Source: Thermoflavimicrobium daqui (lineage in GTDB: Bacteria; Bacillota; Bacilli; Thermoactinomycetales; Thermoactinomycetaceae). From it: a stretch of 64,000 nt of DNA. Positions within the stretch are counted from its first letter, which is position 1. Each line of letters starts with the position of its first letter. The notes beneath the pieces were generated by a model, which searched no databases, was not told the origin of the DNA, and saw nothing but the letters and a program-made list of their open reading frames with translations. Positions 16,102 through 27,101 of the stretch are shown piece after piece. The position numbers and the translations under genes are program-made. Where the stretch lies: the NCBI RefSeq assembly GCF_003313465.1, contig NZ_KZ845676.1:1-64000 (forward strand), given 5' to 3'.

Positions 16102-16137
16102 AAAGAAAAACAGCCTAACTGTCGGCTGTTTTTCTTT
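16102..16137. terminator. Bidirectional terminator between lutC and argS
   Basis: aaagaaaaacagcc / ggctgtttttcttt form a 14-bp stem with T runs on both strands. It overlaps the argS stop codon. Confidence 0.85.
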
Positions 16138-17818
16138 ACATCGACTGTGGTGCTTTAATCCCTAAGATGCGTAGACACTCTTTAATAATGGTTGCTACTG
16201 AAAAAACTAAATGCAGGCGAGCGTTTTTGTTTTCCGAATCAAGGATCCGTACTTTTGCATAATAGCTATTAAAGGAACGGGCGAGGTCGAGAGCATACCG
16301 CGCAATTTTGGATGGGTCATAGTCTGTCCAAGATTGTTTGACCACTTCTCCAAATTGAGAAAGAAGGAAGATAGTCGACCAAGCTTCATCTTCATCAAGT
16401 GAATAACCTATTTGTGGAACAAAGTCCCCTGACTTTCGTAACAACGAGTGGCAACGAGCATGTGTATATTGTAAATAGGGTCCTGTTTCTCCATCAAAGT
16501 TAAGCATATGTTCAAAGGAGAAATCTACATCATTGGTACGGAAGTTTTTTAAGTCTTGAAAGATGACAGCTCCTATTCCAACCTGTTTAGCAATTTCATG
16601 TTTATTCTCTAATGTAGGATTCTTTTGATCGATAATTTGATAGGCGAGCTCTATTGCTTCATTTAAGACTTCCTCTAGTAAAATCACTCGTCCAGCTCTG
16701 GTAGACATTTTCTTGCCGTTTTGCAACATCATACCAAATGGAATGTGAATGATGTCCTTTGCCCAGTCAAAACCTGCTTTTTGAAGGACCAGTTTGACTT
16801 GCTGAAAGTGGAGAGTTTGTTCACTTCCTACTACATATAAAGAGCGAGCGAAATCAAAGTTACGTTTACGATATATGGCAGTAGCAAGGTCACGAGTAGC
16901 ATAGATAGTAGCCCCATCAGATTTTTGAATTAGACAAGGAGGAAGATCATTTTCATCTAATTGAACAACAAGAGCTCCGTTACTTTCTTCAATAAGTCCT
17001 TCTGCTGTTAGTAACTCTATCACTTCGTCCATTTTATCATTATAAAATGACTCTCCATGAAGATAATCAAAGGAAATATCTAATAATTGATAGATACGGA
17101 AAAATTCTTTTAATGATTCCTCGCGAAACCAGCTCCATAATTTAAGTGTTTGTGGATCTCCCTCTTCTAGCTTTTTAAAATAAAGTCGTCCTTCATCATT
17201 TAATTCAGAATGCTTGTTAGCTTCGTCGTGAAACTTGATATACAGACGTAGTAACTCAACGATCGGTTGCTGTATTACCTTTTCTTCGTCTCCCCATTTG
17301 AGGTATGCAACAATTAGTTTTCCGAATTGCGTTCCCCAATCTCCTAAGTGATTAATTCGTATAGGACGATATCCATTTTTGGCAGTAAGGTTCGCAATGG
17401 AATGACCAATCACTGTGGAGCGTAGGTGACCCATTGAGAAGGGTTTAGCAATATTTGGCGCAGAGAGATCGATAGGGACATTTTGGTTTTCTCCATCATT
17501 GTTTGAGCCGAAGCTTGCCGCTTTTAAGACGATCTGATTGAGTAATTCTTGACTGATTTGTTTTTTATCTAAGAAGATATTGATATAAGGACCGACAGCA
17601 TCTACTTTTAAGAAAAGTGGATGGTGAATCGACAAGGCCAGCTGTTCAGCAATCTCTTTTGGAGAGCGCTTAAAGGTTTTGGCCCATGAGAAACAAGGGA
17701 TTGCATAATCTCCAAAATCAGGATTTTTTGGCTTTTCAATCACGATGGAAAGATCGTGATGAATCATTCGATCTAGAGACTCTTGAATTACCTGCTTCAC
17801 CATTAGCTTGATATCCAA
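16136..17818 (-). CDS. argS: Arginyl-tRNA synthetase
   Basis: A 560-residue class I synthetase that charges tRNA-Arg. The HIGH-like motif is in APNIAKPFSMGHLRSTVIG (here Ser-Met-Gly-His for His-x-Gly-His), followed by HLGDWGTQFGKL. The KMSKS-like motif reads KKMSTRAG. The N-terminal Arg-specific add-on (PKNPDFGDYAIPCFSWAK) and the anticodon-binding C-terminus (LQYTHARCHSLLRK, DLARSFNSYYAKVRIL) are present. The open frame extends to 17971, but TTG 17818 has AGGAGG at the right distance and gives the family length. The extra upstream codons lie in the T-box terminator region and are not translated. Confidence 0.95.
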   Translation of the reverse strand: MDIKLMVKQVIQESLDRMIHHDLSIVIEKPKNPDFGDYAIPCFSWAKTFKRSPKEIAEQLALSIHHPLFLKVDAVGPYINIFLDKKQISQELLNQIVLKAASFGSNNDGENQNVPIDLSAPNIAKPFSMGHLRSTVIGHSIANLTAKNGYRPIRINHLGDWGTQFGKLIVAYLKWGDEEKVIQQPIVELLRLYIKFHDEANKHSELNDEGRLYFKKLEEGDPQTLKLWSWFREESLKEFFRIYQLLDISFDYLHGESFYNDKMDEVIELLTAEGLIEESNGALVVQLDENDLPPCLIQKSDGATIYATRDLATAIYRKRNFDFARSLYVVGSEQTLHFQQVKLVLQKAGFDWAKDIIHIPFGMMLQNGKKMSTRAGRVILLEEVLNEAIELAYQIIDQKNPTLENKHEIAKQVGIGAVIFQDLKNFRTNDVDFSFEHMLNFDGETGPYLQYTHARCHSLLRKSGDFVPQIGYSLDEDEAWSTIFLLSQFGEVVKQSWTDYDPSKIARYALDLARSFNSYYAKVRILDSENKNARLHLVFSVATIIKECLRILGIKAPQSM

Positions 17819-17844
17819 TGTAATTCCTCCTAGTCCTTTATCAA

Positions 17845-18075
17845 TAAAAAAAACTCGTCTCCTATGAGGAGACGAGTTTACCACCCGTGGTACCACTCCG
17901 CTTGCACGTGAAAATGCCACTCTGAAAATTGATAACGGAATTAAGTTCCGGTTACGCCTAAAGGTATTCAACGTAACATCTCACGAGTGCGCTTCAAAAA
18001 GGGATGTTTACTAGGCTCCCAGCACCCCTAGCTCGCTGTAAAACAAGCCCCTTTTTTACTTTCTCAGTCATTGAT
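17845..18075 (-). promoter_or_regulatory. T-box riboswitch (tRNA-Arg responsive leader)
   Basis: Read on the minus strand, the leader carries the T-box antiterminator core GGAGTGGTACCACGGGTGG at about 17880-17897. It is followed by a terminator with stem ctcgtctcc/ggagacgag and a T run (17845-17877). Upstream is a long Stem I-like hairpin with the GGTGCTGG-type distal loop and a specifier-like segment GAAGCGCAC, where CGC (Arg) would be the specifier codon. Uncharged tRNA-Arg is expected to stabilise the antiterminator and switch argS on. Confidence 0.88.
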
Positions 18076-18099
18076 AATCGTTGATTTTATTTTTATAAG

Positions 18100-18128
18100 A
18101 TCTTAACAGATAAAAATAGAAATGTAAA
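18100..18128 (-). promoter_or_regulatory. Promoter of the argS leader
   Basis: On the minus strand TTTACA, a 17-base spacer and TAAGAT lie just upstream of the T-box Stem I. Confidence 0.6.
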
Positions 18129-18230
18129 GAAATTGCTAATAATTATACTCCCTTTTAACCTACAAGATGACAAACAGTAGAATCTATGAAATTTCTTTTG
18201 TTTTCAAGTGCTTTCTTCTTTATCATTTTT

Positions 18231-18239
18231 TGATATAAT
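18231..18239 (+). promoter_or_regulatory. Extended -10 promoter of the que operon
   Basis: TGATATAAT (TG-n-TATAAT) lies 48 bases before the queE start. The -35 is poor, which fits an extended -10 promoter. A short hairpin (cctct/agagg) follows, but the preQ1 riboswitch pattern is not met. Confidence 0.55.
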
Positions 18240-18287
18240 GCCTCTGTCTGTTGTAATGAAAGAGGGAAAAAGAAGGTGTCTTTCTCA

Positions 18288-18998
18288 ATGAATCTATTAG
18301 AATATGAAGAAATCAAACTTCCTATGGTAGAAATCTTTGAAACTGTTGAAGGAGAAGGAACTCGAGCGGGGTTTTCCACGACATTTGTCCGAGTATATAA
18401 TTGTAATTTACGCTGTACTTGGTGTGATACTCCCTATAGTTATGCGCCAGCTAAGCCAGAGTTCTGGGCGACGATCAGTGAAATCGTTTCTGAAGTTAAA
18501 AAGTACCCCCATCAACATATTTGCTTAACCGGCGGTGAACCGCTCATGCATGGCAAGAAGTCGCTTGCACTGATTCAAGCCCTCGCGGAGATCGATTATA
18601 TACAGGATATTCATATTGAAACCAATGGAGCCATTCATTTGGGACTGTTTCAAGAGTTGCGAGAGATGCATCCACTCGTACAAAATAAAGTACGTTTTGT
18701 TTTGGATCATAAACTACCAGCAAGTGGAGAACATGACAAAATGGTACTGGAAAACTTTCAGTATTTAACTGAACAAGATGAGATTAAGTTTGTGATTGGC
18801 AGTGAAGAAGATTTCGACTATGCTGTCGATATTCTAAACAAATGGCATCAAAACGGCCTTCCTTTATTTAGCCCTGTTTGGGAAACGATGCCACCAGCAA
18901 AATTGGTATCCTTGATGTTAGAGCATCAATTAACTCATGTGAAATTAAATCTACAACTTCATAAAGTGATTTGGGATCCAGAAGCACGTGGAGTGTAG
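18288..18998 (+). CDS. queE: 7-carboxy-7-deazaguanine synthase QueE
   Basis: A 236-residue radical SAM enzyme that turns 6-carboxytetrahydropterin into 7-carboxy-7-deazaguanine in preQ0/queuosine synthesis. The [4Fe-4S] motif is C39-NLR-C43-TW-C46, in the QueE style (RVYNCNLRCTWCDTPYSY). VEIFETVEGEGTRAG is the N-terminal substrate segment and LTGGEPL is the SAM-binding strand. ATG 18288 is chosen; GTG 18276 is in frame and would add four residues. It opens a queE-queC-queD-queF series, though a 300-base gap lies between queC and queD. Confidence 0.93.
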   Translation: MNLLEYEEIKLPMVEIFETVEGEGTRAGFSTTFVRVYNCNLRCTWCDTPYSYAPAKPEFWATISEIVSEVKKYPHQHICLTGGEPLMHGKKSLALIQALAEIDYIQDIHIETNGAIHLGLFQELREMHPLVQNKVRFVLDHKLPASGEHDKMVLENFQYLTEQDEIKFVIGSEEDFDYAVDILNKWHQNGLPLFSPVWETMPPAKLVSLMLEHQLTHVKLNLQLHKVIWDPEARGV

Positions 18999-19021
18999 TT
19001 AAAGAAAGGGGAAGTGGACGG

Positions 19022-19705
19022 GTGAAAGAGAAAGCCGTGATTGTGTTAAGTGGCGGATTGGATAGTACCACCTGTATGGGGATTGCTAAACAAAAAGGGT
19101 ATGATTTATATCCCATCACCTTTTTTTATAATCAACGCCACAATCGTGAAGTAGAACAAGCTAAAAAAGTAGCTGAATATTATGGCGTGGAGCATCATCA
19201 TAAAATTGTCAATGTTTCCTTTCTAGGCGATATAGGTGGCAGTGCCTTAACTGATCAAGCTATGGATGTACCTACAACCAGCATAGCTGAGGAGATTCCA
19301 TCGACTTATGTTCCAGCGCGTAATTTGATCTTTTTATCTTTAGCGACAGCCTATGCAGAAGTGATCGGTGCACAAGCGATTTATACAGGGGTTACGGCGG
19401 TAGACTATAGTGGTTATCCCGATTGTCGTCCAGAATTTATCCAGTCGATGACAGACACGATCAATCTAGCGACGAAAATGGGTGTAACTGGTGAAGATCG
19501 ATTAAGGATCAAAACCCCACTCATTCATTTAAGCAAAGCAGAGATTATTCGTATTGGATTAGATTTACAAGTACCATATGAGTTGACCACTTCTTGTTAT
19601 TTAGGTGAAGAAGAAGCGTGTGGTGTATGTGATAGTTGTCGTTTACGCTTAAAAGGTTTCGCGGAAAATGGGGCTCAAGATCCCATTCGTTATCAGTCGT
19701 GTTAA
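19022..19705 (+). CDS. queC: 7-cyano-7-deazaguanine synthase QueC
   Basis: A 227-residue ATP-dependent enzyme that makes preQ0 from 7-carboxy-7-deazaguanine and ammonia. The P-loop of the PP-loop family is VLSGGLDSTTCMG. YVPARNLIFLSLATAYAE and GVTAVDYSGYPDCRPEF are family motifs. Four zinc cysteines are in CYLGEEEACGVCDSC with an upstream Cys. GTG 19022 after AAAGGGGAAG is chosen over the longer open frame, because the family begins about six residues before SGGLDS. It starts 23 bases after queE. Confidence 0.95.
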   Translation: MKEKAVIVLSGGLDSTTCMGIAKQKGYDLYPITFFYNQRHNREVEQAKKVAEYYGVEHHHKIVNVSFLGDIGGSALTDQAMDVPTTSIAEEIPSTYVPARNLIFLSLATAYAEVIGAQAIYTGVTAVDYSGYPDCRPEFIQSMTDTINLATKMGVTGEDRLRIKTPLIHLSKAEIIRIGLDLQVPYELTTSCYLGEEEACGVCDSCRLRLKGFAENGAQDPIRYQSC

Positions 19706-20013
19706 TACCAGCATAATGGGTATAGTATGGGCATAGTTTCGTCACGTGACTGATGATGTCGAGCAAAGATGAGTTCGAGTTCGCGTAAGTATATTCCATC
19801 AGATAGAACGCGCAAAGCCTTATGGAAGTAACACAAGGAAGCAGTTTGCGCTAAATGCTTACTGACTCCATAGCCTTCCGCTAGGTAAGACATCATAGGT
19901 CAACATAGCACCGAAAAATGCTTTTTTTTATTACCTATTTCTAGCTAATCAACACTACAGACATGTTATAGAAGATTACTAGCTAAGCAGTGTGGAATGA
20001 AGAAGGTGAAGAG
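19706..20013. repeat. Intergenic spacer carrying repeat copy A (19801-19893)
   Basis: The 93 bases at 19801-19893 (minus orientation) resemble 57449-57541 (plus orientation) at about three quarters identity by hand alignment, with two compensating one-base indels. Shared words include atgtcttacctagcggaa, tttagcgcaa and gtgttacttccata. Reading frames exist in both copies (minus 19896-19702 here), but neither has a ribosome binding site and the indels shift the frame in the middle, so it looks like a DNA or RNA element rather than a gene. Confidence 0.55.
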
Positions 20014-21242: not shown

Positions 21243-21497
21243 ATGCATCAAACGATTATGAATCTATTAAGTGAAGTAAAAGGAACTCCAGAGTTAGTTC
21301 ATCAACTTACTCCAGAAACAGATATGATTAATGAGGTTGGACTTGATTCACTGCAAATGATCAACTTTATTTTGGCAGTGGAGACGACATTTGACTTACA
21401 GATAGATTATGAAGAGTTTGATATGGCACATCTTTCATCGATTAATCAATTTGTCGATTTTTTACACAGTGTGAAAGAGAAGGCGGGTAGTCTCTAA
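21243..21497 (+). CDS. Acyl carrier protein (phosphopantetheine-binding)
   Basis: An 84-residue stand-alone carrier protein. EVGLDSLQMINFI carries the phosphopantetheine serine (Ser36) in the GLDSL motif, with acidic helices on both sides. It would hold an acyl or aminoacyl group as thioester. It is not the housekeeping AcpP by context: the next gene overlaps it by one base and encodes an ATP-grasp ligase, as in butirosin-type systems where BtrJ loads an amino acid on the BtrI carrier. That comparison is inference from gene order. Confidence 0.88.
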   Translation: MHQTIMNLLSEVKGTPELVHQLTPETDMINEVGLDSLQMINFILAVETTFDLQIDYEEFDMAHLSSINQFVDFLHSVKEKAGSL

Positions 21498-22861
21498 TGA
21501 CAGAATCCCCTTCTATTATTCTGGGGACATTTGATGCCGAATCGATTTGGCGAGATTCCCATTTAGCTCAGCTTCCTTTTTTCCCAGATCATGAGAGAAG
21601 ACTACTCATTCTTGCGATGGATGAGCTATTGTTTTCACTTTGTCAGTCACAAGATTACTGGATTACCCGTTTTCCGATTGACGATGCCTTTCGATCTTAT
21701 TTAAAAGTTTTAGGATATGAGATGAATCATTACGCTGTGGTTCCTATCGAACAGATGGCTTATCATGTCGAGCGGTCCACTTGTCTGTTTGAAGAGTTGC
21801 TGGAGCCTCACATTTTAGACGATTTACAACCAACTATGTTGGATCATGCTCGATGTGTCCCCTATGCGATCATGCCACAAACAGCAAGGGTATGGGAAAC
21901 ATATCAGCTAAAAGGTAGGTTGCCAGATTATGAACGAGTGAGAAAAGTGAATTCCAAAGTGTATAGCCATCAATTACGAAGACGTTTATCATTTAAGCAT
22001 GATGGGACAATTATAAGAAGTGTCCGGGAATTGGAGATGGTAGGGGAACGATTTTCAAGGGATTCTTTTTTAATCAAAGATCCTTATGGTGTATCAGGTA
22101 AAGGAAACTTACTAATCCAATCGAATCGGATGCTTCAACGTGTTATTGCTTATATTCAAAAACAAGAGCAAGCAGGGAAAAAAGTAACCTTTCTCTTGGA
22201 ACCTTATCATAATAAAGTGCGGGACTTTTCCTGTCATATGGTTATTGAAGAACAGGGAGATATTCGTTTGCTAGGGATTCAAGAAATAATAAACCAACAA
22301 TTTAATTATATGGGATCACGAAGTATGTCGGATTTGGAAATAGAAGCATTGGCTCAACAGGGCTATATAGAACAAATGTTCATGGTAGCAAAAGCCTTAT
22401 ATGAAGATGGGTACTTCGGATACTTAGGAATCGATTCGATGGAGTTAACAAATGGGGAGATCATTCCGATCGTTGAAATTAATGCCAGACAATCGATGGG
22501 ACTGCTCAACCATGCGCTTGATCAAAAACTAAGGCAATGGGGAAAGCAAGGCTCCATCTTATTTATATCGTTGGGATATACAGAAAGATTGGATATAAGT
22601 AAGGTATTGACTGAATTAGATGATAGGAAGTTGCTCTATGAACCAGACAAAGATCAAGGCATTATCCCCCTTACCAGTAATCTATTAACGATTCATTATG
22701 ATGTAATCTCGCAGCAGAGACATAAGGGAATGTCCGTGCCGAGCTTGTATAAAGGTAGATGGTATATGTCGGTTGTTGCTCAGGATATAGAGGAGAAAAA
22801 ACGCCTAGTGCAAGAAGTAAGCACATTGTTTGAAGAGTGGGGCTGTAAAATCTTTTCATGA
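21497..22861 (+). CDS. ATP-grasp ligase linked to the acyl carrier protein
   Basis: A 454-residue protein. The first 180 residues are unlike familiar domains; residues 185 onward have ATP-grasp features. FLIKDPYGVSGKGNLLIQ is the ATP lysine and Gly loop. FLLEPYHNKVRDFSCHMVI matches the middle strand. YLGIDSME and IIPIVEINARQSMGL hold the metal-binding Glu and Asn. Known ATP-grasp enzymes that work with carriers make aminoacyl-ACP thioesters (BtrJ is one). Its start overlaps the ACP stop (ATGA-type overlap), a strong sign that the two act together. Substrate unknown. Confidence 0.8.
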   Translation: MTESPSIILGTFDAESIWRDSHLAQLPFFPDHERRLLILAMDELLFSLCQSQDYWITRFPIDDAFRSYLKVLGYEMNHYAVVPIEQMAYHVERSTCLFEELLEPHILDDLQPTMLDHARCVPYAIMPQTARVWETYQLKGRLPDYERVRKVNSKVYSHQLRRRLSFKHDGTIIRSVRELEMVGERFSRDSFLIKDPYGVSGKGNLLIQSNRMLQRVIAYIQKQEQAGKKVTFLLEPYHNKVRDFSCHMVIEEQGDIRLLGIQEIINQQFNYMGSRSMSDLEIEALAQQGYIEQMFMVAKALYEDGYFGYLGIDSMELTNGEIIPIVEINARQSMGLLNHALDQKLRQWGKQGSILFISLGYTERLDISKVLTELDDRKLLYEPDKDQGIIPLTSNLLTIHYDVISQQRHKGMSVPSLYKGRWYMSVVAQDIEEKKRLVQEVSTLFEEWGCKIFS

Positions 22862-22888
22862 CTTTTAGTCGTAGAAGGAGGGATCTCT

Positions 22889-23989
22889 ATTTCTTCTTGT
22901 GTAACATTACTAGGCTCAGGAAATTCACTGGGTGTATATATTCCAGCACTTCACTTACAAACTCAATTAATCAGCCATGGTGTCCATGCAGAAGTGTTCA
23001 TTCTCGAAAATTTATATAAAGAAGAAGTAAGGGAAAGAATTCCACTATATAAGAAAGCATTCCACCAAAGTTTTTCAGTAGCATTAACAGGTTATAAGCT
23101 GACTCGGGATATCGGGCCTGTCTTAGACGAAAAGCAGGTTGAACAATGTTTATGTACATGGGCAAAAGAAAAGCGAAAACGATTTGTTGCATTAACGGGA
23201 TTTTGGATTCCCATATTAGAGCGATATAAACAACGTATTGCACCTGAGTTGATCGAGATCGATTTGCTACATTTGGATGCATGTGACTCTCCTTCTTTTC
23301 GAGTCTATGCATCCCATATCGATGACTCTTATCAACATATTTGGTTGTATCGCTATGATCAGAAACAAATGTTTTATGAGATTTCGATTACAAAAAAGGA
23401 ACCTATTCCCTTCGAACAAAGAGAAGATCGGTTTATGATTCATGGAGGGGGTTGGGGAATTGGTACTTATCAAAGTAAAATTCCAGAATTACGTAGTGAA
23501 GGATTTAAATTAAATATCACTGCTTATTATCCAGAGGATCTTGAAGATCCAAGTGAACGAGATCAGTTTTTTATCATGGATCCCTCGTGGCAACCATGGC
23601 ATCGCAGTAAACAGAATCATCATACTTTTCCACCGATGAGGCAAGTAGGGCATACACGCCCGATATCGCCGATAAAATGTGAAACCCGTTATGCATGGTT
23701 TGATGTGATTCGTCAGTGTAAAGCAATCATTAGTAAGCTAGGCGGAGCTACCTTGGTTGATTCACTTGCAGCAGCTACACCTATTATATTTTTAGAACCC
23801 TTTGGTGATCATGAGCAAAAGAATGCGGATCTATGGGAGCATTTTGGATTTGGGATATCCTATGAACGATGGAAACAATCGGGATTTTCTGAGGACCTCT
23901 TACGGTCGTTATCTGCCAATTTATTCAAAGCTAGAGGATCATCAATCGATTATGGAGGGACATTTTATGCAACCAAAAACATCCGTTAA
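22889..23989 (+). CDS. Glycosyltransferase-like protein (GT-B fold), apparent ATT start
   Basis: The protein reads VTLLGSGNSLGVYIPALHLQ at its N-terminus, the first Rossmann strand and helix of a GT-B glycosyltransferase. Near its C-terminus KLGGATLVDSLAAATPIIFL then EPFGDHEQKNA is the donor-sugar segment of MurG/UGT-like enzymes. The frame has no ATG, GTG or TTG before GTG 22994, which would cut off the first domain half. ATT 22889 lies at good distance after GAAGGAGGG and gives 366 residues. The frame is continuous with the previous gene across its TGA. A donor and acceptor cannot be named. Confidence 0.65.
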   Translation: MSSCVTLLGSGNSLGVYIPALHLQTQLISHGVHAEVFILENLYKEEVRERIPLYKKAFHQSFSVALTGYKLTRDIGPVLDEKQVEQCLCTWAKEKRKRFVALTGFWIPILERYKQRIAPELIEIDLLHLDACDSPSFRVYASHIDDSYQHIWLYRYDQKQMFYEISITKKEPIPFEQREDRFMIHGGGWGIGTYQSKIPELRSEGFKLNITAYYPEDLEDPSERDQFFIMDPSWQPWHRSKQNHHTFPPMRQVGHTRPISPIKCETRYAWFDVIRQCKAIISKLGGATLVDSLAAATPIIFLEPFGDHEQKNADLWEHFGFGISYERWKQSGFSEDLLRSLSANLFKARGSSIDYGGTFYATKNIR

Positions 23990-25139
23990 GTTTGATCAGA
24001 AAACGTTTAACAATATAAAAAGAACGATTAAAAATATGTCTGTGGCGGGTCGGGCGCAACTACAGGATCCTACTTATGCAGTAGATATTCCTGAAGATAT
24101 TGGGATTAAATTAAATAATGGGTGTAATCTACGTTGCAAACACTGTTTTGAATGGAATAGTGATGGGTATCATCACGAAATGGACAAAAGTGTGAAAAAT
24201 GGTGAGATTGATTTTACTGTATTTGAACAAATCATGGAACAGACGAGAGAGAAAAAATCAAGATTATATCTCTGGGGCGGTGAACCCCTTTTTTATAGTC
24301 AATTTGATCAACTAGCTGAGTTGTTGGCAAAAGATCCACGAGAAACAACGATTTGCACAAATGCGATATTAATTGAACAGAAGTTGGACGCTATTTTGAA
24401 AATGTCAGATCAATTAACCTTACTTGTCAGTTTAGAAGGGTTTGAACAAGAAAATGATGCTATTCGTGGCAAAGGAACTTTTCGCCGTGTTGTTAAAGCC
24501 GTCGAGCGGCTACGTGATCTGCAGGAGAAAGGCATTTACAAAGGTCGTGTATCCATCAGCTTAACAATTAATGATGCGATGATTGGAAAGTTATATGACT
24601 TCATGGTCTTTTTTGAAGAGATCGGTGTAGATACTGTTTATTTTGTATTTCCGTGGTATATCCCTGAAGCAGTAGCCAATACCATGGATGATTTTTTCAT
24701 GGAGCAATTCCCGTGGTTGGCTAAGCAGATTTCAGCACAAAAATATAGTTGGCATTCTTTTACCTTTCATATTTCACCAGCGAAAGTGGAGCCACTCATT
24801 GAAGAAATGGAGCGAATGAATCAACGGATCTGGCAAAGTCGAATTCGCTTTCAACCTGCTTTAGAGCCAGATGAAGTACGTGACTTTGTCTTAGGGGTTC
24901 CAAAGCCGGCGATGAAACGAACCCAGTGCCTATCGATTGCGAGTCGTGTCGATATTATGCCCGATGGAAAAGTCAATCCGTGTAAATTTTTCCCAGAATT
25001 TACGCTTGGAGATTTAACCCAAAAGAATGTCACAGAAGTTTTTCATAGTGACAATTTCAAAAAACATCGAGAGGTTTTGGGATGTGGACTGATGCCGATT
25101 TGTTCGCGTTGTGTCCTCCTATACAATCATGGTCGCTAG
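23967..25139 (+). CDS. Radical SAM protein with SPASM/twitch-type C-terminus
   Basis: A 390-residue radical SAM enzyme. The cluster motif is C53-NLR-C57-KH-C60, in NNGCNLRCKHCFEW. YLWGGEPLFY is the SAM-binding GGEP segment. The C-terminus has a Cys-rich auxiliary-cluster region: CLSIASRVDIMPDGKVNPC, then a CGLMPICSRC ending. Such enzymes do oxidations, epimerisations or cross-links on peptides or carrier-bound substrates. ATG 23967 follows GGAGG and overlaps the previous gene by 23 bases. No precursor peptide gene is visible nearby, so a carrier-bound or sugar substrate is more likely here. Confidence 0.88.
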   Translation: MQPKTSVKFDQKTFNNIKRTIKNMSVAGRAQLQDPTYAVDIPEDIGIKLNNGCNLRCKHCFEWNSDGYHHEMDKSVKNGEIDFTVFEQIMEQTREKKSRLYLWGGEPLFYSQFDQLAELLAKDPRETTICTNAILIEQKLDAILKMSDQLTLLVSLEGFEQENDAIRGKGTFRRVVKAVERLRDLQEKGIYKGRVSISLTINDAMIGKLYDFMVFFEEIGVDTVYFVFPWYIPEAVANTMDDFFMEQFPWLAKQISAQKYSWHSFTFHISPAKVEPLIEEMERMNQRIWQSRIRFQPALEPDEVRDFVLGVPKPAMKRTQCLSIASRVDIMPDGKVNPCKFFPEFTLGDLTQKNVTEVFHSDNFKKHREVLGCGLMPICSRCVLLYNHGR

Positions 25140-25155
25140 TGAAAGGGAGATAACC

Positions 25156-26115
25156 ATGCAAAACGTAGCGTTTTATCTAACTGACTTTTCTGTATATATT
25201 CCAGAGAACAAACGCAGTATCGCCCAACTGATCCAACAAATACAAAAAACAGGCTATACAACTAAAGACGAAGCGGATTATACCGAACGTGGGATTTTCT
25301 ATGCTCCAGTAGAAGAAGAGCGATCTTGGGAGGAAATGATCGAACAGGTGGTTACACCGGTCTTAGCGAGATGTGCAACTACAGGACAAAGGATAGGACA
25401 AATTTGGTTAGTTCAATCTTCGCTTAAGCTTTGGCATGAACGTAATCCGGTTAAAGGCCTATTAAAGAAATGGGAATTAGAGCATCTTCCTTTGTTTACA
25501 CTCGAAGAATATTTTTGTGCCAGTTATCATGCAGTATTACAAATGGCACCTGGTTTTTTTTCACTGCATCCCGATGAAGCACTCCTCTTGATTGTGGCGG
25601 ATAAAGGGATGCATCCATCTTGTCGTTTGAATGACTATGTCATGTTTGGAGATAGTGCAAGTGCTTGTCTCTTTACCTTGCAAGGTGGAAAGCATAAAAT
25701 CTGGACCATTTGTAATCAAATCGATGGAGTCGTATATGATGATGAAGATCACGAAGGTTTAAGCTCGTTAGGAACCACATTTTATTTGGGGATTCGGAAA
25801 GTATTTCAAGATGTTTTGCGAAAATCAGGTATTCCATTAGAGCAAATTCGCCAAGTCATTGGAACCAATGTAGATCAACCGATGTGGGACATGGTTGGTC
25901 AGATTTGTGGCATTCCTACTGATCGAGTATATCAGGCTACATTATCGGAAACAGGGCACTTGTATAGTACTGATGTAATCTATAATGTGCAACATGCTAT
26001 ACAAAATGGTCTTCTTAAGCCGGGGGATTACTATCTCACTTTCTCCCTAGGTTTCGGTGGGGTTTATGGCTGTGCACTACAACAAGTCGTCGAAGAAGAG
26101 CAAGGAGGAAGGTGA
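25156..26115 (+). CDS. Divergent 3-oxoacyl-ACP synthase III-like protein (first of a pair)
   Basis: A 319-residue thiolase-fold protein. EEYFCASYHAVLQM holds a cysteine at the position of the KAS III nucleophile, followed by LLIVADKGMHPS and FGDSASACLFT, the fold's second strand and the FGDGA-like motif. The usual His-Gln-Ala-Asn reads TNVDQPMWD, and the usual Gly-Asn reads SETGHLYSTDV, so the Cys-His-Asn triad is altered. It may transfer an acyl group (as CerJ-like enzymes do) rather than condense. ATG 25156 follows AAAGGGAGA. The next gene encodes a second, weaker homologue 1 base later. Confidence 0.75.
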   Translation: MQNVAFYLTDFSVYIPENKRSIAQLIQQIQKTGYTTKDEADYTERGIFYAPVEEERSWEEMIEQVVTPVLARCATTGQRIGQIWLVQSSLKLWHERNPVKGLLKKWELEHLPLFTLEEYFCASYHAVLQMAPGFFSLHPDEALLLIVADKGMHPSCRLNDYVMFGDSASACLFTLQGGKHKIWTICNQIDGVVYDDEDHEGLSSLGTTFYLGIRKVFQDVLRKSGIPLEQIRQVIGTNVDQPMWDMVGQICGIPTDRVYQATLSETGHLYSTDVIYNVQHAIQNGLLKPGDYYLTFSLGFGGVYGCALQQVVEEEQGGR

Positions 26116-26116
26116 A

Positions 26117-27055
26117 ATGGGACGGCTGCTTCTTCATGTTCATACGGTTATCCCCGATACAGTCACTACCTTAGAACAGGATGAACAAGATCAGGAAAAT
26201 CCTTGGATGGAAAGCGAACCATTTCAATGGATGAAAAGAACTTATCACTTTCCACAAGAAACCCGTTTGGCATTTCGTCATATTCCGATTCCTGAGCTTA
26301 GGATGAGTACGGCTGACTTTGCTTATACTCATTTACAAAGTCAGCCTTCTTTTCAACTACAGATCGATGGCTTGATCTATTGTCATGAAACGTTGGAATT
26401 GTCCCCTTCATTGATCCCCAGCTTAAAATTAAGAAAGCGAATGAAGTGGAAAAAATCACTTCCACTTACATTGGGACAAATGGGTAGTCTTAGTTGTATC
26501 AATGGGCTTACCTTAGCTAACCAAATGATACAAAGTCAAGCAGTAGAGACTCTTTGGCTTCTTTGTATTGCCGACCGCGTCTCTTTTCCATTTCATCGTC
26601 ATCAGTGGTCGGGTTATCCCAAAGGAGACGGAATCACCTGTTTGAGTGTGTCACGTAAGCAAGGTGGATATGCGTTGTTAGATAGCCAGTTTCACTTAGG
26701 GAGTATACAGCCAGATATCCAAACCTGGAGCTTTGCTGAGTATGAGCAAGCAGTCCATCGGCTAATCGATCACGTGAAAGAGCTGTGGAAACGATACAAA
26801 GATCATGATCAACCAATTGACCTCATCATTCCTCAGATGATTCATGAAGAATTCATCAGTCAGTTGGTACAACAGCTTGAAGCCAATGTATTCTTACGAA
26901 CGAATTGGCCACAAATCAATTTGCTAGGAAGTGATCCTTGGTATTCGCTAAGTGAAGCAGAGAAGTCAGGTCAAGTCAAGGAAGGGCAAATGATCTTATT
27001 AATTTTTGGCAGTGTCGATTATGGTATTGGTTCATTGCTATTAAAAAAGAGGTAA
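26117..27055 (+). CDS. Second KAS III-like protein, strongly diverged
   Basis: A 312-residue protein with the fold's nucleophile-elbow segment GQMGSLSCINGLTLANQMI and a closing strand GQMILLIFGSVDYGIGSLLL. These resemble the Cys-containing helix and the C-terminal Gly-rich strand of KAS III. The catalytic His and Asn motifs are not seen. It is placed directly after the first KAS-like gene (ATG 26117 after AAGGAGGAAGG), and may form a heterodimer with it, like chain-length-factor partners in type II systems. The family call is moderate; function is inference. Confidence 0.6.
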   Translation: MGRLLLHVHTVIPDTVTTLEQDEQDQENPWMESEPFQWMKRTYHFPQETRLAFRHIPIPELRMSTADFAYTHLQSQPSFQLQIDGLIYCHETLELSPSLIPSLKLRKRMKWKKSLPLTLGQMGSLSCINGLTLANQMIQSQAVETLWLLCIADRVSFPFHRHQWSGYPKGDGITCLSVSRKQGGYALLDSQFHLGSIQPDIQTWSFAEYEQAVHRLIDHVKELWKRYKDHDQPIDLIIPQMIHEEFISQLVQQLEANVFLRTNWPQINLLGSDPWYSLSEAEKSGQVKEGQMILLIFGSVDYGIGSLLLKKR

Positions 27056-27101
27056 AGAAAAGCCTAGGCATACCAGATATTTGGATGCCTGGGCTTTTTC
27101 T
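27056..27101 (+). terminator. Intrinsic terminator of the ACP operon
   Basis: aaagcctaggcat / atgcctgggcttt stem followed by tttct. Confidence 0.85.

Follow-up and report, generated by a model that had tools for sequence, protein, structure and literature searches.

What does the six-gene operon at positions 21243-27055 of this stretch of Thermoflavimicrobium daqui DNA make, and which of its genes form the pathway proper? The window analyzed here (64,000 nucleotides, positions 1 to 64,000 of contig NZ_KZ845676.1, assembly GCF_003313465.1) carries, all on the + strand, genes for an acyl carrier protein (ACP), an ATP-grasp ligase, a GT-B glycosyltransferase (GT), a radical S-adenosylmethionine (SAM) enzyme, and two proteins related to ketoacyl-ACP synthase III (KAS III), here named KAS-A and KAS-B. 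As judged by comparison of related loci, the first four genes are a conserved cassette, whereas the KAS pair lies outside this core and appears to be an exchangeable end of the pathway. An earlier note on this DNA, made from the letters alone, had described one operon of packed genes with an ACP/ATP-grasp overlap and a closing terminator. This six-gene operon is real: the intergenic gaps are -1, 27, -23, 16, and 1 bases, and the last gene runs into a strong terminator (hairpin plus T run, -27.6 kcal/mol, z -6.1 against shuffled sequences), which a simple terminator scan had not listed. The assignments of a free-standing ACP with Ser36, an ATP-grasp ligase, a sugar-transferase-like protein, and two KAS III-like proteins were borne out as well, and that of the radical SAM enzyme was refined. 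The features of the operon are as follows.

21243..21497, + strand: free-standing ACP, 84 amino acids (PF00550, 33.7 bits, Pfam)
21348..21350, + strand: codon of Ser36, the phosphopantetheine site, in a DSL motif (sequence)
21497..22861, + strand: ATP-grasp ligase, proposed carrier loader, kin of solved peptide or amino-acid ligases (Pfam, profile search)
22875..22881, + strand: AAGGAGG ribosome-binding site ahead of the ATT start (sequence)
22889..23989, + strand: GT-B glycosyltransferase, likely ATT start (model, fold search, reading frame)
23967..25139, + strand: radical SAM enzyme, twitch/SPASM type (PF04055, 73.2 bits; PF13186, 38.3 bits; Pfam)
24123..24146, + strand: CxxxCxxC radical SAM cluster motif, C53, C57, and C60 (sequence)
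25156..26115, + strand: KAS-A, KAS III-like, with a CerJ-like Cys-His-Asp set (Pfam, alignments)
25516..25518, + strand: codon of KAS-A Cys121 (alignments)
25957..25974, + strand: KAS-A stretch from His268 to Asp273 (alignments)
26117..27055, + strand: KAS-B, divergent partner of KAS-A related to KAS III, catalytic His absent as judged by eye from alignments (profile comparison)
27057..27099, + strand: intrinsic terminator (folding energy)

To define the core, we followed the GT gene. Among 398 genomes of the class, the GT search gave 37 matches, of which 12, window included, were nearly full-length (E below 1e-70); the 25 weak matches (E 2e-6 or weaker), covering about 40 to 110 residues, were dropped. 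The GTDB species collection was then scanned with the GT alignment, and the best 80 of 181 relatives make up the loci numbered here with L. After merging of doubles (L027/L053, L030/L108, L032/L115), 89 distinct GT-bearing loci including the window were available. A gene was counted when a six-frame search placed it within 6 kb of the GT gene on the same strand; these counts replaced those from chosen open reading frames (ORFs), which had missed short ACP genes. L072, a 3.6-kb contig on which the neighbors are not visible, was counted as a miss. An ACP gene was present in 87 of the 89 loci, an ATP-grasp gene in 82, a radical SAM gene in 70, and all four genes in 67; at the level of groups formed at 70% GT identity, all four were found in 30 of 43. 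The neighborhood check called for by the earlier note therefore upholds four of the six genes as traveling together and does not place the KAS pair in the core. The relatives are mostly Paenibacillus, joined by Cohnella, Clostridium, Ruminiclostridium, Cellulosilyticum, Pedobacter, Nostoc, and Chamaesiphon, and by Chromatiaceae, Methylococcaceae, Rhodospirillales, and Chitinispirillaceae assemblies. Neither the ATP-grasp protein nor the GT had a match in the two further genomes of the genus, and the operon therefore looks accessory.

Two observations weigh against the pathway model proposed below. The radical SAM gene is missing from a group of Paenibacillus loci (P. elgii, P. tyrfis, P. ehimensis, and relatives); ACP, ATP-grasp, and GT genes are kept without a radical SAM gene nearby in the Paenibacillus loci L059, L066, L069, L075, L078, L081, L086, and L087. 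Furthermore, an ABC-2 exporter and a Gfo/Idh/MocA oxidoreductase gene are common in the relatives, and the window operon has neither. In the genome, an ABC-2 pair with its ATPase lies on another contig, with no core genes in the 19 kb inspected, and only weak relatives of the Gfo/Idh/MocA oxidoreductase are present. The cassette also occurs in other company. L119, on a Streptomyces plasmid, encodes, in this order, a radical SAM enzyme, ACP, ATP-grasp ligase, Gfo/Idh/MocA oxidoreductase, phosphotransferase-like protein, GT, and condensation-domain protein. In cyanobacteria the cassette is combined with parts of nonribosomal peptide synthetases (NRPSs), namely radical SAM enzyme, AMP-forming ligase, ACP, GT, and condensation domain (L061:3045-8615 and L062:6914-15464; the radical SAM gene of L061 is split over two ORFs). 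L031 and L107 hold two ATP-grasp genes, two ACP genes, a BtrH-family gene, a pyridoxal phosphate (PLP)-dependent decarboxylase gene, and an ABC-2 exporter beside the GT gene, that is, a butirosin-like set joined to the cassette.

The ATP-grasp protein matches PF02655 with 23.8 bits, just above the cut-off of 23.2. When its family profile was compared with solved proteins, the ATP-grasp peptide ligase 8ynd came first (E 2.7e-13), followed by 8yi6, an L-propargylglycine-glutamate ligase (E 4.9e-9) that we take to be BesA, and by several biotin carboxylases; PGM1 (3wvq) was a weak match (0.0048) ranking below several of the latter. Alone, these matches allow an amide ligase or a carrier loader alike, and as the nearest solved ATP-grasp enzymes are named peptide or amino-acid ligases, amide formation off the carrier would be possible, which counts against a loader. 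A loading role is favored by the ACP gene, which nearly always lies near the ATP-grasp gene, and by the loci in which the ATP-grasp enzyme appears to be replaced. Seven of the 89 distinct loci have no ATP-grasp gene near the GT gene, and the radical SAM gene is present in three of these seven (Nostoc L061, Chamaesiphon L062, and Rhodospirillales L084). In all three, an AMP-forming ligase directly follows the radical SAM gene and an NRPS condensation domain lies past the GT; the genes of L062 run radical SAM, ligase, ACP, GT, the last followed by the gene of a multidomain protein (condensation, adenylation, carrier, and thioesterase). The remaining four loci (L063, L072, L100, and L106) are either truncated or carry neither gene in the vicinity of the GT. 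The best model for the three AMP-forming ligases is TIGR03098 (exosortase A-associated ligase), below its cut-off, and their relatives include gramicidin synthase and fatty-acid ligase alike. The absence of an adenylation gene, stressed in the earlier note, thus applies to the window, and in these three relatives such a gene stands in for the ATP-grasp gene. We hold with good confidence that the ATP-grasp enzyme would load the carrier, and the loaded unit is probably an amino acid rather than another acid.

The third protein gave no match in a Pfam scan. Its AlphaFold model, built on an alignment of 33 sequences, has a predicted local distance difference test (pLDDT) score of 91.5, and Foldseek retrieved the calicheamicin glycosyltransferase CalG3 as the best match (E 1.2e-9, template modeling score 0.6). 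Further GT-B enzymes, including SsfS6, SnogD, SpnG, and YojK, stood in the same listing, with MurG lower. At an E value of 0.01, the sole solved protein matched by the GT profile was a processive diacylglycerol glucosyltransferase, over 85 positions. Since the modeled protein matches GT-B folds, the third gene is, by its predicted structure, that of a GT-B glycosyltransferase. Its reading frame opens upstream of the first ATG/GTG/TTG (22994), which lies 35 codons after an ATT at 22889. This ATT is placed 7 bases behind the AAGGAGG and is directly followed by LLGSGNSLGVYIP, as in the relatives, and is most likely the start codon.

The radical SAM enzyme was described in the earlier note as radical SAM/SPASM. 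C53, C57, and C60 are indeed present, and both the radical SAM domain and the SPASM model PF13186 match, but a twitch type fits better than a full SPASM domain. Residue conservation was taken from the first 60 sequences each for ACP, ATP-grasp, GT, and radical SAM, with those of the window left out. Four C-terminal cysteines are kept in at least 90% of the 60 radical SAM sequences and have counterparts in the window protein, and Cys373 lies outside this conserved set. Four C-terminal cysteines of this kind mark the twitch type, with one auxiliary cluster, as opposed to full SPASM; the window protein combines them with CxxxCxxC, and the NCBIfam twitch model scores 93.5 bits, below its cut-off of 170. 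The 25 NCBIfam matches shown for this protein are all below their cut-offs, and many of the weaker ones are maturases of ribosomally synthesized and post-translationally modified peptides (RiPPs). Across the 68 loci with all four genes (doubles included), the median identity to the window is 62.6% for the radical SAM enzyme, 46.0% for ACP, 44.3% for GT, and 35.4% for ATP-grasp. As the most conserved of the four, the radical SAM enzyme may therefore work close to the carrier, although this is no more than hinted at by sequence.

KAS-A matches PF08541 (C-terminal domain) with 44.7 bits, whereas KAS-B gives only weak Pfam matches (E 0.18-0.2) and is linked to KAS-A by profile-profile comparison (97.5%). 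In an alignment of KAS-A with FabH, Cys121 falls on the FabH Cys, the FabH His is replaced by Thr, and the FabH Asn by His268. KAS-A thus does not possess the FabH-type Cys-His-Asn set, and these replacements rule out an ordinary FabH. Instead, it carries a Cys-His-Asp set at the positions of CerJ and ChlB3: in a phmmer alignment with CerJ (28.1 bits), His268 corresponds to CerJ His295 and Asp273 to an Asp five residues after it. All 13 aligned KAS-A sequences, that of the window among them, retain the Cys, His, and Asp, and the position of the FabH His is T, N, Q, or H across the 13. In ChlB3 and CerJ the Cys-His-Asp set serves acyl transfer; the CerJ variants C116S, C116A, and H295N are dead, and the Asp variant, numbered D301A in that source, keeps 0.3% activity (PMC9573744). 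Because its residue set matches that of CerJ/ChlB3 and not that of FabH, we read KAS-A as a releasing acyltransferase; that it is such an enzyme rather than a condensing one is moderately likely.

KAS-B was read by eye from alignments, because there is no confident model for it. At the position of the KAS-A catalytic His it has Ser, and the Asp is kept; we infer it to be a partner of KAS-A. Several results weigh against these readings. The piece of the alignment that pairs Cys121 with CerJ Cys116 is very weak (4.5 bits), KAS-B Cys127 is kept in 4 of 4 sequences, and the KAS-B model is poor (pLDDT 47.7). The top Foldseek matches of this model are nevertheless FabH (E 2e-4). KAS-A followed by KAS-B stands beside the core in the window and in three Paenibacillus loci (L038, L044, and L046); KAS-A without KAS-B does so in four Clostridium loci (L088, L089, L097, and L104) and in L047. 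In the three Paenibacillus loci an MBOAT gene and a gene without Pfam match come after the KAS pair; a Pfam run on L038 gave PF03062 with 123 bits for the MBOAT gene (17294-19758, including its neighbor).

In most relatives other proteins are found in the place of the KAS pair. Five families (c5, BtrH, u7, c23, and u19) were lumped as c5/BtrH-linked. BtrH is the ACP:aminoglycoside acyltransferase of butirosin biosynthesis (sources consulted on butirosin: PMC11405602, PMC10318531, PMC4431377), and c5 alone links to its family (96.9% probability, E 1.6e-10, 14% identity); u7, c23, and u19 link to c5 at 84.8%, 96.2%, and 49.0%. Of 85 loci with GT and ATP-grasp, a count that holds the three doubles twice, 69 have only c5/BtrH-linked genes, 8 only KAS-A, 2 both, and 6 neither. 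Fisher's test gives p 2.4e-6 on the 85 loci, uncorrected for kinship, and p 0.0024 on the 36 of the 43 identity groups having ATP-grasp. Under a strict rule, by which only matches to the c5 or BtrH profile at 1e-10 counted and each double was taken once, the corresponding numbers for 82 loci are 56, 8, 2, and 16 (p 6e-4). In L051, one of the loci with both, the KAS match is weak (2e-5 to 2e-4) and at the locus edge. In a few relatives, a condensation domain takes the position that the KAS pair occupies in the window. The window genome gave no BtrH_N match, in a search in which 1 of 14 control genomes matched, below cut-off, and no match to one c5 protein in a search without positive control.

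The KAS pair thus tends to occupy the place taken in relatives by a c5 or BtrH protein, exceptions aside, and would be an exchangeable end of the pathway rather than part of its core. The exchange is not strict, however: two loci have both kinds, 6 to 16 have neither depending on the definition, and the relatives are not independent. Moreover, u7 (0.2%), c23, and u19 (1.1-1.2%) have no link to BtrH, and u7 is the only supposed releaser in 8 loci. No cysteine is kept at the 85% level in 56 c5 sequences, whereas the BtrH set keeps Cys79; with 14% identity to BtrH and no conserved Cys, an acyltransferase role of c5, the commonest supposed releaser, is doubtful.

KAS-A can also be used as bait in place of the GT. 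A KAS-A profile search of the 398 genomes gave 21 matches at 1e-10 or better. In 15 of 15 strong matches (1e-28 or better, window included), an ATP-grasp gene of this family lies near a KAS-A gene; the weak matches in 6 of the 21 genomes were set aside, and the three of them inspected showed no ATP-grasp gene. The KAS-A family therefore appears tied to ATP-grasp and ACP genes without the GT as bait, with the caution that the ATP-grasp profile had included two of the eleven loci of the ten-gene cluster described next. A KAS-B profile found, in the 398 genomes, only the window and the three genomes with multiple KAS-A/KAS-B pairs.

Eleven of the 15 strong KAS-A loci (L025, L026, and L159-L167) belong to a second cluster, in which ten genes are always arranged as follows: KAS-A, ATP-grasp, PLP decarboxylase, ACP, c28 (weakly KAS-like), KAS-A, an unassigned gene, acyl-CoA dehydrogenase, KAS-B, and MATE. 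No GT of the operon's family and no core radical SAM gene were seen in these loci, which probably represent a second uncharacterized ATP-grasp/ACP pathway. Three genomes of another family (L132-L138) each have three adjacent KAS-A/KAS-B pairs. The clusters around these pairs are large and also contain genes for ATP-grasp, PLP decarboxylase, AMP ligase, and PhyH oxygenase and, by eye, sugar genes.

From the genes, their order and conservation, the predicted GT fold, and the KAS-A residue set, we infer the following chemistry. A phosphopantetheinyl transferase encoded elsewhere in the genome, where two PF01648 genes are candidates, would arm the ACP, and the ATP-grasp ligase would charge the ACP thiol with an acid, probably an amino acid. 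With an activated sugar as donor, the GT would glycosylate either the carrier-bound unit or the compound to which this unit is finally attached; that the sugar goes onto the carrier-bound unit is an even call. The radical SAM enzyme may modify the carrier-bound unit or its sugar. Finally, the acyl group could move onto KAS-A Cys121, helped by His268 and Asp273, and on to a hydroxyl or amine acceptor, with KAS-B as a non-catalytic or acceptor-binding partner. This model as a whole, an amino acid glycosylated and radical-modified on the ACP and transferred by the KAS pair, has in our view about an even chance of being right. It keeps the loading, glycosyl transfer, and KAS transfer proposed in the earlier note, which the comparison of sequences supports, and changes the role of the KAS pair, which appears exchangeable and suited to acyl transfer rather than condensation.

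More tentatively, and with a somewhat less than even chance, the operon may belong to a cross-phylum modular class in which a fixed carrier, GT-B, and twitch-type radical SAM enzyme build a glycosylated, radical-modified amino acid. Loader and releaser would be swapped between lineages, the former being an ATP-grasp or AMP-forming ligase and the latter a KAS III pair, a BtrH-related protein, or a condensation domain, and heteromeric aminoacyl transferases of a novel type would be represented by the KAS III pair. If the acyl-transfer model is true, it implies a class of small molecules of uncharacterized chemistry whose synthesis needs no large assembly line and a radical enzyme acting on a carrier-bound unit, and it allows a test of whether KAS III folds can serve as paired aminoacyl transferases. 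The cassette in question recurs in many bacteria, mostly Paenibacillus.

The earlier statement that the operon matches no standard class was too strong, because carrier loading by an ATP-grasp enzyme is already known in outline from butirosin and, as a prediction, from closthioamide. In butirosin biosynthesis, the ATP-grasp enzyme BtrJ loads an amino acid on the carrier BtrI. The window shares with it the free-standing ACP and the ATP-grasp candidate loader, a likeness of roles and not of compared sequences. BtrH then passes the acyl group from ACP to a sugar-bearing acceptor, and genes for BtrH_N proteins and PLP decarboxylases occur in some of the window's relatives. In contrast, the window operon has neither decarboxylase nor BtrH, with a GT, a radical SAM enzyme, and the KAS pair instead; a BtrK-like PLP decarboxylase was found neither among the six proteins (Pfam) nor in the window (profile) and is present in several relatives. 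Since decarboxylase and BtrH are both missing, the operon is not a butirosin-type member, although it may work alike.

In closthioamide biosynthesis, an NRPS-independent pathway, the ATP-grasp enzyme CtaD is predicted to load β-alanine on the carrier CtaE (PMC6772006). That pathway differs in its thioamide chemistry, and the accessible part of PMC6772006 does not name a GT, a radical SAM enzyme, or a KAS III pair; among the six window proteins, the set searched, Pfam found no thioamide synthetase domain (AANH, CtaC). CerJ and ChlB3 resemble KAS-A in the KAS III-like sequence and the Cys-His-Asp set; CerJ transfers its acyl group to the hydroxyl of a sugar and ChlB3 to an ACP. KAS-A differs in being paired with a divergent KAS-B, and its alignment with CerJ is weak. 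The decarboxylases of L031 and L025 and the AMP-forming ligases of L061, L062, and L084 are most similar to the exosortase A-associated models TIGR03099 and TIGR03098, respectively; all these scores are below the curated cut-offs, and neither gene occurs in the window operon. In line with the earlier note, no close characterized six-gene cluster was found in the literature, and no description of the six-gene set or the four-gene core was found in the full texts searched, which exclude most subscription papers.

Other explanations start from the same genes. The KAS pair might condense, with malonyl or a second acyl unit extending the aminoacyl-ACP to an aminoketone that the GT glycosylates. This would be in keeping with the KAS III relation in sequence and fold, with relatives that have four KAS-like genes beside ATP-grasp, decarboxylase, and acyl-CoA dehydrogenase genes, and with larger clusters containing further ketosynthase-looking genes (by eye). 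However, the Thr and His that the window KAS-A has for the FabH His and Asn argue against it, and we consider condensation unlikely here; the four KAS sequences of L025 and L026 may differ, because both His residues are kept. A similarly improbable alternative is that the ATP-grasp enzyme forms a free amide or dipeptide in solution, with a different cargo on the ACP. The solved relatives 8ynd and 8yi6, both peptide or amino-acid ligases, would suit such a reaction, but the ATP-grasp gene is kept together with the ACP gene across loci and shares one base with it in the window, and an AMP-forming ligase lies beside the radical SAM gene in three loci devoid of ATP-grasp.

The product could also be a cell-surface glycolipid, or a surface polymer decorated with aminoacyl or acyl groups, with a GT of the diacylglycerol-glucosyltransferase kind. 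The GT fold is nearest to natural-product GTs such as CalG3, and the window operon has no MBOAT or exporter gene. On the other side stand the sole solved match of the GT profile (the processive diacylglycerol glucosyltransferase), the MBOAT gene after the KAS pair in three relatives, the common ABC-2 export genes, and the best matches of the tested decarboxylases and AMP-forming ligases to exosortase A-associated models, albeit below cut-off; on balance, we give a surface product a small chance. Far less probable still is a RiPP cluster in which the radical SAM enzyme matures a ribosomal peptide, as the many weaker maturase matches would suggest. The gaps of at most 27 bases leave no room for a precursor between the genes, and the radical SAM gene travels with an ACP; no precursor gene lies between the six genes, the flanks not having been searched for conserved short ORFs. 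A RiPP was set aside for the missing precursor room and for the maturase models scoring below cut-off. The acyl-transfer model outlined above thus is the reading we prefer.

Apart from the operon, the window contains a T-box leader (125.3 bits) at 17865-18080 on the - strand, upstream of a gene at 16136-17971 that, by eye, is arginyl-tRNA synthetase-like.

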